Source of the DNA: Bacteroidales bacterium
Lineage (GTDB): Bacteria > Bacteroidota > Bacteroidia > Bacteroidales > UBA3824
DNA length: 51,469 bases
Direction of reading: 5' to 3'
Assembly (NCBI GenBank): GCA_017541145.1
Contig: JAFXZT010000139.1
Span: 1-51,469 of the forward strand
Positions within the stretch are counted from its first letter, which is position 1. The number at the start of each line of letters is the position of its first letter. A program made the position numbers and the translations under genes. Below the pieces are notes generated by a model. The model was not told the DNA's origin. It saw only the letters and a program-made list of their open reading frames with translations, and ran no database searches. Below, one piece after another: positions 9,168 through 17,842 of this stretch.

Positions 9168-10445
9168 TCATTCATCTAACAGCCACTTCCAACAAGGAAT
9201 TACTTCGACAGCACCATATTTATCGTTCAAAGTTTTTTCCTCATCGTAAGTAATTATAACACGACGTCGGCACGGACGAACTTTCGGAAACTTTTCTAAT
9301 GCACGTGCTTCGCGTAACAAAGTGTCAGAATCAACAATAGAATATGAAACTTGAATTGCAAGTTCGTCTTCCGGAACGTAAAAATCGACTTCGACATTTT
9401 CATTGTAAAAAAATATGCGCTCATTGTCAGAATCGTGTCCATATTTGCGGAAAAGGAACAATGCCACGATATTTTCCAACAAAAGCGTTTCACTGTTCAT
9501 AAGTTGCAACGACAACAATCCGTTATCAATAAAATAATATTTACAATTGCTTTCTTTTTCAGCAAAAGCAGAGGCTATATTTCTGAGTCTTAGCAACAAC
9601 CAAGCATCCTCCGAAAATTGTAAATAACTAGAAACAGTCGGAACTGATATTTTGCCCGCAACACTTGACAAGATTTTGGAAATTCTTGTATAAGACACAG
9701 GTTGCATAACACTTTCGGCAATTTTTTTTATCAACAACTGCAAAAGACGCGGATTTGAAATTCCGTTGCGTTGAACGATGTCACCAAGGTAAATCTTTTG
9801 AAAAACACTTGACAAATAATTGCGTTTTACCGGTAAATTTATGGTTTCAGGCAATCCTCCCCACGCAAAATATTCGTTGTAAGCCTTCATAAAACGTGCT
9901 TTAGATTCTGTTGCAGTCCGCGAAAGCTCATCGAATTTTACACCCGTGTAAGATAGATATTCCTTAAAACTGAACGGATAGACTTCCACAGGCAAATAAC
10001 GTCCGCCCAATTCCGCCATAATTTCTTTTGAAAGCATTTTAGCATTACTACCCGTAATAAACGCACTGTATTTTTTATCGGCAAGATTGCGGGCAAATTT
10101 TTGCCAACCTACGATATTTTGAATCTCATCAAGGAAAAGCATCGGGCGTTTTCCGTACATCTCCTGATGACATTCTAAAATCAAGTAAAAATCATCAGAA
10201 GAAAACCCGTCAAGCCTTGAATCCTCAAAGTCAAGATATAACATTTCGTCCCATTTATGACCTTGGGCAAGTAACTGACGGATTTTTTGGAATAGCAAAA
10301 ATGATTTTCCCGACCGTCTGACACCGACAAACACCATCAGAGGAAAACTGTCAAGGTCATAATTACGAACAAAAATTTTGTACTTTTCAATATCCTTCTG
10401 ATTATCGAGAAGCACCTGTTTCAGAATATTTCTTGCAATTGCCAT
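9168..10445 (-). CDS. AAA ATPase with DUF4143-type C-terminal domain (copy 1)
   Basis: A 425-residue protein of the large, poorly understood family of AAA_14 plus DUF4143 ATPases. The Walker A is GVRRSGKS (41-48), Walker B is LFLDEIQN (about 103-110), and sensor segment ITGSNAKML follows near 130. The C-terminal DUF4143 part contains a nuclease-like fold region (NENVEVDFYVP near 345-360). These proteins are abundant in Bacteroidota and archaea, without clear function. It is a paralogue of the next gene upstream (10620-11906) but diverged in sequence. The AT-rich codon use matches the bulk of the window, unlike its neighbour. Confidence 0.88.
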   Translation of the reverse strand: MAIARNILKQVLLDNQKDIEKYKIFVRNYDLDSFPLMVFVGVRRSGKSFLLFQKIRQLLAQGHKWDEMLYLDFEDSRLDGFSSDDFYLILECHQEMYGKRPMLFLDEIQNIVGWQKFARNLADKKYSAFITGSNAKMLSKEIMAELGGRYLPVEVYPFSFKEYLSYTGVKFDELSRTATESKARFMKAYNEYFAWGGLPETINLPVKRNYLSSVFQKIYLGDIVQRNGISNPRLLQLLIKKIAESVMQPVSYTRISKILSSVAGKISVPTVSSYLQFSEDAWLLLRLRNIASAFAEKESNCKYYFIDNGLLSLQLMNSETLLLENIVALFLFRKYGHDSDNERIFFYNENVEVDFYVPEDELAIQVSYSIVDSDTLLREARALEKFPKVRPCRRRVIITYDEEKTLNDKYGAVEVIPCWKWLLDE

Positions 10446-10619: not shown

Positions 10620-11906
10620 TTAATCCTCCTCCACGCACCACGCATATACAGGCCTGATGGCGATTTTTAGTCCTTTATGTTCAATGTCGTCGTATTCGTG
10701 GTCGGTAAGAAGAAGAAGGTTGGTGCATTTGGTAAGTTTGTTGGCAAGCAAAAGGCCCGCAATCTCGCGGTTGCGCGTTTTGGGCGACGAGATGTCGTAT
10801 GATACCTGAATCGCCTGAACCACGGTGTCGCCTTCGCACACCACAAAATCGCACTCGCCGCTACGCTCATTGAGATAATAAACATCCCTGCCTGACGCCT
10901 TGCAACGGCGTTGCAACTCAATTAAAACGATGGTTTCGAGCCGCCAACCAAGATTTTCGCCCGCAAAAGCATTTTCACGGTTGTTCATCATAGCCACGTC
11001 AACGGCGTAAACCTTTTCCTGCGTAAGGCGGACACGACTTTTTTGGGCATATTTTTGGATGCCAATTAACAAAAACGACTGTTTGAGATATTGGATGTAA
11101 TTCTTTATCGTGTGTTCCGACTTGATGTGGAACGCATCAGAAAGGTTGGAAACCACCACCTGCGCCGGCGAAACATTCAACAAATGCTGCGCCAATTGTT
11201 CAAAAGCCGCTTTGTAGGATATTTGGTTGCGTTGCTCGATGTCACGTTTGATGATATTGTCCGTCAAATCAGTGACATACGTGCGGCTGTCGCTGATTTG
11301 CAGCAATTCGGGGAAACCGCCGCCACGCATATAATCGTCAAACGCCGCCCGCCTGAACGCCTCCGCTTTTGTGGTCATTGTCTTGGTGTCAACGTCTTTC
11401 ATAGCGCAATACTCGCCAAACGAAAAAGGAAACAGATGTATCTCCTTGGCACGTCCCGAAAGATGTGTGGCAAGTTCGCCGCTCAACAGTTTCGCATTGG
11501 AACCCGTTACAATGATATGGATTTTCTTTCTCAAAAGACGGTTTACAAACAGATGCCAACCTTCCACGTTCTGAATCTCGTCCAAAAACAGGCAGTCGAA
11601 ATCGCCATAAACCTTGTACAGCACTTCAAGCACATCGTTCAACTGTTCTGCACTGATGTTGGCAAGACGCTCGTCGTCAAAATCGGCGTAGGCATACCCC
11701 ACCCCAGCGCTTTCAAGTGCCTGATAGCAAAGTGTTGATTTTCCACTTCTTCTAACGCCTATAACCACCTGTGCCTGTGGACTTTTCAGGGCGATAAGTT
11801 TTTCTTCGGTACGATGACAGAGTTTGTCGCCGCGCCTTGCCGCAAGTTCCTCTTTCTGTTCCGAAAATATTATCTCTAAAATTCTCTTGTCGATATTTCG
11901 TGCCAT
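10620..11906 (-). CDS. AAA ATPase with DUF4143-type C-terminal domain (copy 2)
   Basis: A 428-residue ATPase with the same plan as the neighbouring copy: Walker A GVRRSGKS (50-57), Walker B LFLDEIQN (about 106-113), sensor ITVTGSNAKLLSGEL-like segment near 137, and a C-terminal domain containing NERSGECDFVV. Base use is visibly richer in G and C than in copy 1, suggesting an independent origin rather than recent duplication. Its upstream region carries four 32-bp-period repeats (11964-12080) directly above a -7 box at 11941-11948, so expression is probably under a repeated-operator control. Whether the protein binds those repeats itself is unknown. Function of the family is unresolved. Confidence 0.88.
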   Translation of the reverse strand: MARNIDKRILEIIFSEQKEELAARRGDKLCHRTEEKLIALKSPQAQVVIGVRRSGKSTLCYQALESAGVGYAYADFDDERLANISAEQLNDVLEVLYKVYGDFDCLFLDEIQNVEGWHLFVNRLLRKKIHIIVTGSNAKLLSGELATHLSGRAKEIHLFPFSFGEYCAMKDVDTKTMTTKAEAFRRAAFDDYMRGGGFPELLQISDSRTYVTDLTDNIIKRDIEQRNQISYKAAFEQLAQHLLNVSPAQVVVSNLSDAFHIKSEHTIKNYIQYLKQSFLLIGIQKYAQKSRVRLTQEKVYAVDVAMMNNRENAFAGENLGWRLETIVLIELQRRCKASGRDVYYLNERSGECDFVVCEGDTVVQAIQVSYDISSPKTRNREIAGLLLANKLTKCTNLLLLTDHEYDDIEHKGLKIAIRPVYAWCVEED

Positions 11907-12080: not shown

Positions 12081-12111
12081 ACAAAATAATAATCCGCGCA
12101 AATCTCCACCT

Positions 12112-12184
12112 AAGTGCCAAAAATGTGTAAAAACACACAAAAACAAGTGCCAAAAATGTGTAAATTTACACATTTTTGGCACTT
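12112..12184. repeat. Perfect 40-bp palindrome plus an extra direct half-copy
   Basis: AAGTGCCAAAAATGTGTAAA occurs at 12145-12164 followed immediately by its exact reverse complement (12165-12184), a 40-bp perfect palindrome with no spacer. The same 20-mer occurs once more in direct orientation at 12112-12131. It lies 18 nt past the stop of the small ORF ending at 12202. On the minus strand the stem is followed by GTTTTTGTGTGTTTTT, so it could act as a terminator, but the third half-site suggests a protein-binding or recombination role as well. Confidence 0.75.
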
Positions 12185-15693: not shown

Positions 15694-17481
15694 TTAGGCA
15701 ATTGTTTTTGAGATGGCTGTTTTCGGACCGGTCTGGAATCCATACGGTAAAATACGTTGCGACGGCGTTATCATCGTAACGTTAGAGAGTTTTATTTTGG
15801 AGTTGGCGCAAGGCTTGATGTGCTTGTCGTAGCCGATGAATTTTGCTGCGAAATCGCTGTCAATATCTTCATCGCCGACCATTTGGCTCAACTGATAACG
15901 CAAATCCTCGTCTATTTGGTGTATGCGTTTCAGGAATGTGTAGATGTAGTTTGTGGTGAAGAATCGTGTTACTGCCATATCTTCCTTGCTGCGGTTGCCA
16001 TACATTCGGGCGTGCTGCAATACGGTATCCATTTGGAAGTTCTTTGGATCACGTCCGTATAAGAAACACAACATATTGTCGATTGTGATGCCACGGTCGA
16101 GAATGCTGCCTCCTATAAAAATGTTGGCGGTGTTGTCAAGACGGAGTTGTCCATCATCATTCAGATTTTCAGATACTTCGTTGTCAGAATTGATTACTTT
16201 GACAGAATAATCATTATCTGTGAAAATTCTAATGATACGGTCGCGGATTTCCTGTTTCGATGGAAGGTCAATGCACTTGATTCCCGCTTTTTGAGCCTTT
16301 GCATTAGAGTCTTTGAAATCGTTGAACGCAATATCATACATTTCTTCCAAACGCAAGTCGGACTTGTCGTTAATTTCGTATAAGAAACCTCTGCGAATGT
16401 CTTCGATGAGTTTCAAACTTAAATCCTTTTGCCATTTGTGTGCATCCTTATCGGTATCAACGTGCACAAGACAACTTGTAAAACATTCCAAGTTTTGCTT
16501 CTCCTTTTGGATGGAGCGGATGGCGGCGGCTGTGAAATAGAACACAAGTGTTTTTGTAATGCTTTTGAGGTTGTCGGATGCAATGCCATTGTTGGTGTAA
16601 CGTGCATTGCGTTTGCCCAAAATGTTGATGCACTTTTCATCTACCGGCACAAACAGATTGGAATACATCGAATTTGGGTCTTCTGATTCCTCAAAGTATT
16701 GCTTCCCTCCCACATATTTGTCGTGAACAGGAACAAGTTCGGTGTGTCGGGGCTTGAAATGTGGTACAAGGCCGTCGGCATTGAGGTTGAGATAGCCGTC
16801 GGGCTGCAAATAGAGCGCGTACGGCGTAGCGGTTACCTGTAAATAGCGGCAATATTCAGGAATGGAGAGAAACTCCATTATCTGACTACTGATTTTCGCC
16901 ATTGTGCTTACGTTGTGCGTCCTTCTGAAATTGCAACTTGCAAAATCAGCCTCATCGTCAACTACAAGCACCTTTTTCTTTTTGAGGTATGGCGACTTAA
17001 CGTTGAACAGATTGATCAAGTGTTTGATGTTGGTAGTCTCTTTTTTGCAGACAATTATGATTTTTGAACGCTTTGCTACGCTCTCTTGAAGTCCGTTTTT
17101 CTTGAATTTTTCGAGAATGTCGTAGATTTCCACTCTGCCCTTTTGGTTGAGTGTGCCATCAGGTTTGAACCAACGGAAATCACGTAGTAAACGGTTGAGA
17201 GTCTGCGACGCAAGGGTCCTTGTTCCTTTGGTCATCACAATACATACATCGATGCCGTGGTCGAAGCATAGACCGATGATGTTTTCAAAAGTGTTGGTTT
17301 TGCCGCACTGTATTTTGCCAAGCAAAAGAATCGGCTCTATTGCGTTTGGCTTGTTGCTAAGTAGTGATTTCGCGGAGTTTTCAATACAATCACAAAGTTC
17401 TTTGGAGTACTGGAACACCGACTTACTCTTCAAAGTATTGTAAATGTATTCTTCTACCTGATTGTTGTTGCTTTGTATCAT
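15694..17481 (-). CDS. Z1-domain helicase-like ATPase
   Basis: A 595-residue SF2-like ATPase with Z1-domain features: Walker A GKIQCGKT (55-62), Walker B VLVVDDEAD (171-179), motif III VTATP (216-220), motif V-like GGSILDRGITI (457-467) and motif VI QHARMYGNR (489-497). Z1 proteins occur in restriction-type gene clusters with MutL/MORC ATPases, methylases and nucleases. Here no methylase or MutL is next to it. First gene of a three- or four-gene operon with a barrel protein and an EVE-like nuclease. A purine-rich AAAGGAAAA lies about 10 nt before the ATG. The long leader contains a structured RNA (17564-17733). Shorter than many Z1 proteins I know of, but all helicase motifs are intact. Confidence 0.82.
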   Translation of the reverse strand: MIQSNNNQVEEYIYNTLKSKSVFQYSKELCDCIENSAKSLLSNKPNAIEPILLLGKIQCGKTNTFENIIGLCFDHGIDVCIVMTKGTRTLASQTLNRLLRDFRWFKPDGTLNQKGRVEIYDILEKFKKNGLQESVAKRSKIIIVCKKETTNIKHLINLFNVKSPYLKKKKVLVVDDEADFASCNFRRTHNVSTMAKISSQIMEFLSIPEYCRYLQVTATPYALYLQPDGYLNLNADGLVPHFKPRHTELVPVHDKYVGGKQYFEESEDPNSMYSNLFVPVDEKCINILGKRNARYTNNGIASDNLKSITKTLVFYFTAAAIRSIQKEKQNLECFTSCLVHVDTDKDAHKWQKDLSLKLIEDIRRGFLYEINDKSDLRLEEMYDIAFNDFKDSNAKAQKAGIKCIDLPSKQEIRDRIIRIFTDNDYSVKVINSDNEVSENLNDDGQLRLDNTANIFIGGSILDRGITIDNMLCFLYGRDPKNFQMDTVLQHARMYGNRSKEDMAVTRFFTTNYIYTFLKRIHQIDEDLRYQLSQMVGDEDIDSDFAAKFIGYDKHIKPCANSKIKLSNVTMITPSQRILPYGFQTGPKTAISKTIA

Positions 17482-17563
17482 TGTTTTTTTCCTTTTAGGT
17501 TTCTATTGTCTCGTTTTGTTCTGACCATCCCAAAATCAGTATTTTTTTTGCCCCTATAAAATA

Positions 17564-17733
17564 AAACGTGGGATTGTACTATCGTCCGTTCCGTCCATTG
17601 AGGCTTTGACCTTGCCCTGTTATCGAGAACGAGCAACGCCGAAACCCACGCATTATGTACACTCCTATCCTTTCGGACGTGAGATTAATACATATCCGTC
17701 TGTCACCACCGTTGCTTTGAGTTCCGATAACAG
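17564..17733 (-). ncRNA. Candidate pseudoknotted structured RNA in the Z1 operon leader
   Basis: On the minus strand, CTGTTATCGGAAC plus GCAACG (17733 down to 17710) pairs with CGTTGC and GTTC plus CGATAACAG (17638 to 17617). This gives helices of 9, 4 and 6 bp separated by a bulge and an internal loop. Within it, ATGTA/TACAT and CTC/GAG enclose GTCC-GAAA-GGAT, a GNRA tetraloop hairpin. GCGTGGG (around 17645-17651) can also pair with CCCACGT (17566-17572) beyond the main helix, giving an interleaved, pseudoknot topology. The region has no ORF. It starts about 85 nt above the Z1 ATG. It may be a cis regulator, an RNA component of the system, or a mobile leader. Confidence 0.65.
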
Positions 17734-17763
17734 TTCTTGAAATGGCCAAATTCCAATGAATCG

Positions 17764-17790
17764 AAAAAACAAAGCGTTAGCAACGCCTTA
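17764..17790 (-). terminator. Terminator after the Big2 lipoprotein, or attenuator of the Z1 leader
   Basis: The minus strand reads AAGGCGTT-GCT-AACGCTTT followed by GTTTTTTCG, an 8-bp stem (one G-U) and a T-run. It lies about 97 nt below the stop of the lipoprotein gene. If the Z1 transcript starts at the -7-like TATATTTG (complement of 17835-17842), the same hairpin would sit inside its leader as an attenuator. Confidence 0.6.
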
Positions 17791-17834
17791 TTTTTATATA
17801 AGCCGCCGGAGGATTTTCACATCCACCGACAAAG

Positions 17835-17842
17835 CAAATATA
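17835..17842 (-). promoter_or_regulatory. Possible -7 element for the Z1 operon
   Basis: The minus strand reads TATATTTG, a match to TAnnTTTG. It would start a transcript near 17828 that contains the hairpin at 17764-17790, the structured RNA and then the Z1 gene. No clear -33 element is seen, so a start closer to the RNA is also possible. Confidence 0.35.

Follow-up and report, generated by a model that had tools for sequence, protein, structure and literature searches.

We found that a minus-strand structured RNA in a 51,469-nucleotide stretch from a Bacteroidales bacterium (contig JAFXZT010000139.1; hereafter, the window), lying upstream of a gene for a Z1-domain protein (15694-17481), belongs to a multicopy family present in many Bacteroidales. 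Its fold is conserved, covarying and multiply pseudoknotted, and its copies lie on the coding strand, preceded by a promoter motif and in most cases followed closely by an open reading frame (ORF). With a probability of about 0.5, we read the family as a cis-acting attenuator or riboswitch-like leader; transcription of the leader, along with its sensing, switching and termination, is predicted from sequence.

An earlier note on this DNA had described a 170-nt pseudoknotted RNA at the locus. The 170 nt are real, but they are only part of a structure of ~310 nt that runs from a 5' hairpin to a hairpin before the ATG, and the 5' strands of a long helix, H4 (17763-17744), lie outside them. The parts of the locus are as follows.

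17561 to 17790, minus strand: core of the leader RNA, a covariance-model match of 158.2 bits with model R1, a score that is not independent because the model's alignment contains the window copy itself
17835 to 17842, minus strand: sigma-ABfr-type -7 box (TAnnTTTG), TATATTTG, proposed from the frequency of the motif upstream of genus copies
17808 to 17827, minus strand: P0, hairpin at the 5' end of the predicted transcript, GGTGGAT..ATCCTCC, from folding of the region between the -7 box and the element
17774 to 17786, minus strand: H0 hairpin, GCGTT-GCT-AACGC, the loop of which pairs in relatives with a segment near 17710-17708
17744 to 17763, minus strand: H4 5' strands (long helix), partner 17613-17593, with APC z up to 31
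17710 to 17733, minus strand: M' and M 5' strands (the interrupted helix of the earlier note), from folding, covariation and strand swapping
17655 to 17694, minus strand: P3 arm, GAAA tetraloop at 17674-17671, 92.4% of cells paired
17645 to 17651, minus strand: a5', GCGTGGG, 5' strand of the interleaved helix a, paired with a3' in 98.7% of cells
17617 to 17639, minus strand: M' and M 3' strands, T strand included, from folding, covariation and strand swapping
17627 to 17638, minus strand: T strand, CGTTGCTCGTTC, near-invariant, with the M 5' strand and d as competing partners, from pairing counts
17593 to 17613, minus strand: H4 3' strands, from APC and double-sided changes
17581 to 17592, minus strand: d, GGAACGGACGAT, alternative partner of T, from pairing counts
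17570 to 17576, minus strand: X, CAATCCC, overlapping a3' and complementary to the S loop, from duplex energies
17567 to 17572, minus strand: a3', CCCACG, adjoining the U-run, from the alignment of 66 copies
17556 to 17566, minus strand: U-run, TTTTATTTTAT, directly 3' of a3', from the sequence and the fold of the 3' half alone
17521 to 17539, minus strand: S hairpin, CTGATTTTGGGATGGTCAG, loop TGGGAT pairing with X, from the run ATCCCA and its flanking stem
15694 to 17481, minus strand: downstream gene, a Z1-domain protein of 595 aa (Pfam Z1, E 7.8e-23), starting 82 nt after the element

The helices proposed in the earlier note are all present: the interrupted 9+4+6 helix (CTGTTATCG/CGATAACAG, GAAC/GTTC and GCAACG/CGTTGC), the GNRA hairpin (loop CC-GAAA-GG at 17676-17669) and the interleaved helix (CGTGGG at 17650-17645 with CCCACG at 17572-17567). 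The 6-bp part of the interrupted helix has a second possible partner at 17592-17581. Folded as the minus strand, the 170 nt reached -55.7 kcal/mol (z -3.69), and 0/200 shuffles were as good. Read as the plus strand, the same letters gave z -2.09, with 9/200 shuffles as good, while the fold of the 279-nt leader had z -5.2 (0/200).

To describe the fold across the family we used an alignment (A4) of 66 of 160 candidate copies, 114 of which passed a redundancy filter before the 66 were picked by hand, a choice that left out some longer and more divergent copies. Its 43 pairs, which make up eight helices, form in 95.5% of cells; double-sided cells number 426, compared to 143 in shuffles, so pairing in the homologues is not lost without compensation. 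Versions of the structure slid along the alignment were at most 46.6% paired, a control biased towards the structure, as it was derived from the same 66 copies. The pseudoknots are made by the H0-loop contact, H1 and helix a. H4, which pairs 17763-17744 with 17613-17593, is the best-covarying long helix: double-sided changes occur at 14 of its 15 pairs (one of the 15 is broken in the window copy), and its APC scores (z up to 31) are independent of the structure chosen from the alignment. The H0-loop contact is paired in 92.6% of cells in the 66 sequences, with double-sided changes at all 3 pairs. Helices of the earlier note also covary, both the GNRA-bearing arm (92.4% paired, changes on both sides at 3 of 5 pairs) and the interleaved helix (98.7% of cells paired, changes on both sides at 3 of 6 pairs). 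The 9-bp part of the interrupted helix, M', is poorly placed by the alignment and was therefore tested by swapping strands between copies; the longest run was 8.5 bp for a copy's own pairs compared to 4.8 bp for swapped strands. At least 6 bp form in 64/66 copies (p ~1e-39, which is not a true probability, as the copies are related). G-U cells far outnumber A-C cells (318 versus 48), indicating that the constrained molecule is the RNA of the gene's sense strand.

One sequence block of the alignment is almost invariant, and helix a adjoins a T-rich run in the 66 copies. Three copies outside this pattern (L086, L100 and L208) have no U-run right after CCACG; they carry similar sequence with TGATAATCA at that point, which looks like another element inserted there. 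Two further helices were considered. Helix b (GUGGGA/UCCCAC), which would form a local hairpin ahead of the U-run, shows covariation in the long class (double-sided cells: 20 versus 5.8 shuffled) and was kept out of the core model as it is, by eye, absent from several short copies. Helix K, a lower P3 stem that would compete with helix a as an alternative for a5', was rejected, having no excess of own over swapped pairing and being absent in the window copy. Three copies (L035, L045 and L049) have short pieces of the element's 3' part, in inverted orientation, upstream of them; these may be what is left of a second, divergent copy, or may serve as an antisense source.

Conserved homologues, on which the earlier note had made its reading depend, were found by DNA search in 13/17 relatives sampled from the genus and in 1/21 genomes from other families. 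The same kind of search in the genome of the window yielded four more matching pieces, spread over three contigs, and the covariance model gave 10 matches there, 8 of them with E < 1e-19. Profile iteration over the fetched loci collected 55 copies above 100 bits, and a degenerate pattern hit at least 119 loci in bacterial genomes plus 4 viral contigs. Among the pattern matches listed, 120/123 loci fit the profile; L185, L197 and L207 do not. Across a sample of the order, the covariance model found matches in 43/198 genomes, the window's own included, at up to 10 places per genome. The best match exceeded 75 bits in 16 of these 43; in the other 27 it was weaker and mostly short. In a sample of the phylum, 3/197 other genomes matched, at 45.9, 37.6 and 32.5 bits. 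The weaker matches include a shorter form of ~165 nt that has the same plan and reaches beyond the order. Nearly all of the pattern-matched loci are labelled as Bacteroidales (Bacteroides, Phocaeicola, Prevotella, Hallella, Segatella, Paraprevotella, Parabacteroides, Muribaculaceae and others); two are labelled as other phyla and may be misbinned (L102 and L113). Copy counts are not independent, as some copies are near-identical between relatives and seemingly the same place was counted twice in three cases (L122/L040, L175/L029 and L163/L050). In 21 stretches of 4 to 51 kb there was one strong copy each; two of these stretches belong to one contig, with copies ~9.5 kb apart.

TAnnTTTG is the consensus of the -7 element of sigma-ABfr promoters. 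We found it 41-86 nt upstream of the element in 47/52 genus copies, with 5.6 expected from shuffles when counted anywhere in 170 nt. It also occurred within 100 nt upstream in 88/119 wider copies among the matches listed and within 110 nt upstream in 13/21 short copies, both figures being without a control. The region of P0, between the -7 box and the element, is itself structured, with a mean z of -3.0 over 47 copies and z < -1 in 45/47. On the downstream side, we determined ORF positions for 159 of the 173 copies at the cut-off (14 had short flanks). A same-strand ORF started 40-110 nt downstream in 114/159 copies, compared to 10/143 on the mirror side and 146/662 at random positions, and the spacing from element to ATG peaked at 70-79 nt (44/159). 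The ORF finder was crude, and annotated plasmid genes agree with it in two cases, one in Phocaeicola dorei with a start 61 nt past the match and one in Bacteroides finegoldii with a start 84 nt past it. The conserved structured domain thus lies in the same-strand 5' leader of genes, and the promoter motif suggests that it is transcribed. PMC11697453 names sigma-ABfr promoters for Bacteroides sRNAs; PMC7366714 gives 5' UTRs longer than 100 nt for 13.5% of mRNAs in B. thetaiotaomicron, with a predicted riboswitch in ~2% of those.

Two sets of segments could pair with the near-invariant strand GCGUGGG-n-CGUUGCUCGUUC. For its first half the partner is the CCCACG directly before the U-run (helix a). 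Its second half pairs either with the upstream AGCAACG (M, 95.7%) or with the downstream GGRACGRGYAAC (d, 96.7%), and these partners overlap. The T:d pairing runs uninterrupted over 11 bp in 47/66 copies and over at least 9 bp in 62/66; in the window copy, 10 of 11 pairs form, 3 of them G-U, with one mismatch and a longest unbroken run of 6. Among the 66 long-class sequences, d showed no covariation signal (96.7% paired versus 96.5% shuffled, with 53/500 shuffles reaching its score), because T hardly varies. In the short relative, T and d differ in sequence from those of the long class and still match (8.1 own, 7.2 swapped and 6.5 shuffled over 20 copies, at least one of which, L238, is visibly cut in the wrong place). 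A functional role for d is suggested by its conservation, by changes after which pairing persists through wobble, and by this modest excess. Folded alone, the 3' half of the window copy forms a and d as one hairpin before the U-run (-27.7 kcal/mol), hardly more stable than shuffles (z -1.2); the 3' halves of the 66 copies have a mean z of -3.9, and both a and d form in 33/66, the window among them. When whole elements were folded, M was preferred over a and d together in 66/66 copies, a partial comparison, as the Vienna program scores nested states and not pseudoknotted ones.

A further pairing joins the end of the element to the region before the ATG. Of the 173 copies at the cut-off, 164 could be used (8 had no recognisable anchor and 1 a short flank). 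The duplex of X with the S loop averaged -9.8 kcal/mol for a copy's own partners, compared to -7.2 when partners were swapped between copies and -6.4 when shuffled. The corresponding values in 21 copies of the short relative were -10.4, -7.6 and -6.0. Uninterrupted Watson-Crick runs of 7 bp were present in 39/164 own pairs, versus 5.5% when partners were swapped and 2.8% after shuffling, and in 26% of copies the duplex was weaker than -8 kcal/mol. Among the copies with a strong duplex, 83/104 have an S stem of at least 4 bp, a figure without a control.

The genes behind the leaders are mostly unrelated and include those for lipoproteins, LRR proteins, TerD and UvrD. We scanned 135 downstream proteins (set A3: the window protein and 134 of 146 others; L015, L018, L022, L046, L056, L064, L101, L120, L149, L167, L187 and L201 were dropped as near-duplicates, doubtful ORFs or too long, L015 and L022 being near-duplicates). 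Their matches at E 0.001 covered 95 Pfam families, led by LRR_5 and Flg_new (5/135 each), and DUF6140 matched 2/135; among the 135 we saw no common function or pathway that points to a signal. PADLOC matches comprised GajB-like helicases, PbeA, BrxP, AbiP2 and type III methyltransferase (1-2 members each), MzaC in 3/135 and mad8-like proteins in five; these are raw counts from the downstream proteins alone, from which we claim no defence enrichment. Behind five leaders (L009, L017, L026, L043 and L052) is a small protein of 73-99 aa with a shared HIG-containing start, helix-turn-helix-like by eye. An abiF RNA above threshold lies ~240 nt from the copy of Prevotella ihumii (L095 1254-1290), and a DUF805b cis-regulatory RNA, at 34.2 bits against a gathering score of 35.6, lies ~560 nt from another copy in the window's own genome (L213 2300-2334).

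The earlier note had tied the RNA to the Z1 operon, possibly as an RNA component of a Z1 restriction-like system. Z1-type ATPases do recur, as the first gene behind five genus leaders (window, L012, L015, L022 and L027) and as the second in L013, but they are a minority: Pfam Z1 matched 2/135 downstream proteins (L015 and L022 having been dropped before the scan), and an 82%-identical leader in the relative G007 stands before an unrelated gene. A specific linkage to Z1 therefore did not hold, and with most copies preceding other genes, a part in a Z1 system is barely credible. Elsewhere in the window, two neighbouring AAA_14/DUF4143 ATPases (9168-10445 and 10620-11906) both match the PADLOC candidate PDC-S01 at ~1e-95. 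A 76-bp palindromic repeat (12109-12184, minus strand), close to where the Z1 cluster ends on its far side, is 98.7% identical in the relative G016, where neighbouring DNA is 65-72% identical.

The downstream gene can differ between relatives while the upstream gene, promoter and leader are shared. Two loci (L008 and L012) share 1767 bp at 96.4% identity, to 35 nt past the element, and then diverge into a helicase and a Z1-type ATPase gene. Others part 9 nt (L029-L031 versus L041), 40-54 nt (L014/L015) or, for the window and L007, 11-13 nt past the element. The reverse also occurs, with element and gene shared from the element's 5' end onwards and different DNA upstream of it (L043/L052 versus L047, L050 and L051). 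The pairs L032/L038 and L054/L055 were rejected as swaps, as their genes look like diverged homologues. Synteny resumes further downstream in L066/L067, L073/L074 and L068/window, and does not resume within the compared stretch in L078/L079; no conserved right end of the exchanged cargo was seen in the pairs examined, synteny resuming at different sequences. These observations give some support to a suggestion of the earlier note, that of a mobile leader element, in that leaders stand before different genes, and these can be replaced with the promoter, leader and upstream gene left in place. An integron-like or site-specific cassette was rejected, with break points varying from ~9 to 70 nt past the element and no arrays. 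An integron cassette site (attC, for which each ORF in an array would be followed by a site) was likewise rejected, since the copies are 5' of ORFs and there is a single strong copy per stretch.

We compared the element with the 4227 families of Rfam release 15. At gathering scores there were no matches in the window, and none overlapping the element in 16 further loci or in 20 loci of the short class. At relaxed thresholds, the window leader matched only freshwater-2 (16.3 bits, outside the core), and nothing lay on the element in the other loci scanned. The earlier note's long pseudoknotted leader, which that note did not recognise as a known riboswitch, is thus supported as one that no Rfam family matches, with covariation behind the fold. 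We do not assign it to any known riboswitch class. With riboswitches and attenuators the element shares a structured, conserved 5' leader, possible exclusive helices and a terminator-like hairpin before a U-run; it differs in having several pseudoknots, genes without a shared pathway and a switch strand linked to a loop beside the AUG. HEARO, the omega RNA of IscB, is likewise a ~200-nt pseudoknotted RNA 5' of a gene, with many copies that lack a nuclease gene. In contrast to it, the element has no Rfam match and keeps a conserved spacing before many unrelated ORFs; the RRXRR domain of IscB-type nucleases matched in 0/20 genomes, and control genomes equally gave 0.

Among RNAs of the same phylum, the FopS/GibS sRNAs of Bacteroides are alike in being multicopy in Bacteroidaceae, with a sigma-ABfr promoter and a terminator-like 3' end (PMC11697453). 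According to that paper, FopS consists of a single-stranded 5' stretch and one terminator hairpin and acts in trans; measured against that description, identity with FopS was rejected, the element being a 230-nt multiply pseudoknotted leader of coding genes. Bacteroidales-1, Bacteroides-1 and Bacteroid-trp are also structured RNAs of this phylum that came from comparative genomics (PMC2864571). Those Bacteroidetes motifs in the table of that paper that are in Rfam did not match the element; Bacteroides-2 and GUCCY-hairpin have no Rfam entry there. In the openly licensed literature, our search scope, no title or abstract start describes the element, subscription papers and supplements being outside that scope. 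The string 'Bacteroid' is absent from the main text of two genome-wide ncRNA surveys of 2021 and 2024 (PMC8632094 and PMC11109978).

In the attenuator or riboswitch-like reading, pairing of the middle strand (GCGUGGG...CGUUGCUCGUUC) with its 5' partners (M) would let RNA polymerase read on, while pairing with its 3' partners (d and a3') would form a long hairpin before the U-run and end the transcript. The 5' domain (H0, the loop contact, H4 and M') may sense a signal and bias the choice between M and d/a3'. In the read-through mRNA, X would bind the S-hairpin loop that precedes the AUG, blocking the re-forming of helix a and perhaps tuning translation. The leader would thereby act as a portable control module, which stays while the genes behind it are exchanged. 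A bolder version, which we advance tentatively, is that of a new RNA-switch class serving as a portable docking leader on chromosomes, plasmids and phages. Exchangeable accessory genes (defence ATPases, helicases, lipoproteins and adhesin-like proteins) would then answer to a single shared cellular signal, and an X:loop lock specific to each copy would match each leader to its own mRNA.

The main rival to the attenuator reading, itself rather unlikely, is control at the level of translation, possibly as an IRES-like module, in which the fold and the X:loop pairing beside the AUG set ribosome access and the U-run is a docking site rather than a terminator. Retention of the X:loop pairing in the distant short relative fits this idea, as do the place of S just before the ATG and the 70-79-nt spacing peak, but helix a beside a T-rich run in 66 copies looks like a terminator. 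We consider it improbable that the RNA is a processive antitermination leader, which would load onto RNA polymerase and carry it through accessory operons. The put and EAR antitermination RNAs provide the features for this comparison, and a stable RNA near the promoter of many unrelated genes, with one block almost invariant, resembles them; such a leader, however, would not require alternative pairings or a U-run beside helix a.

The promoter motif and terminator-like end would also suit a terminated leader that acts in trans as a small RNA, with X as a seed against the pre-AUG loop of its own or sister mRNAs. The better match of X and loop within than between copies would then mean an own target for each copy, but the conserved adjacency to a gene favours action in cis, which makes this account distinctly improbable. 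Still less probable is a role at the level of DNA, as a recombination or transposition site whose complementarities act in single-stranded form. Downstream genes do change soon after the leader (at 35 nt in L008/L012 and 9 nt in L031/L041), yet the variable break points mark no fixed site, and the G-U over A-C asymmetry that marks the RNA strand, the promoter motif and the occurrence of one copy per stretch rather than arrays all argue against it.

A complex, covarying, multicopy RNA without an Rfam family would be a major added regulator for a phylum in which RNA biology has been little explored, and it makes testable how newly acquired genes come under host control. If the switch of the attenuator or riboswitch-like reading is real, its signal would reveal how accessory genes, defence and surface genes included, are controlled, and the family would offer a regulated leader for engineering gut bacteria.
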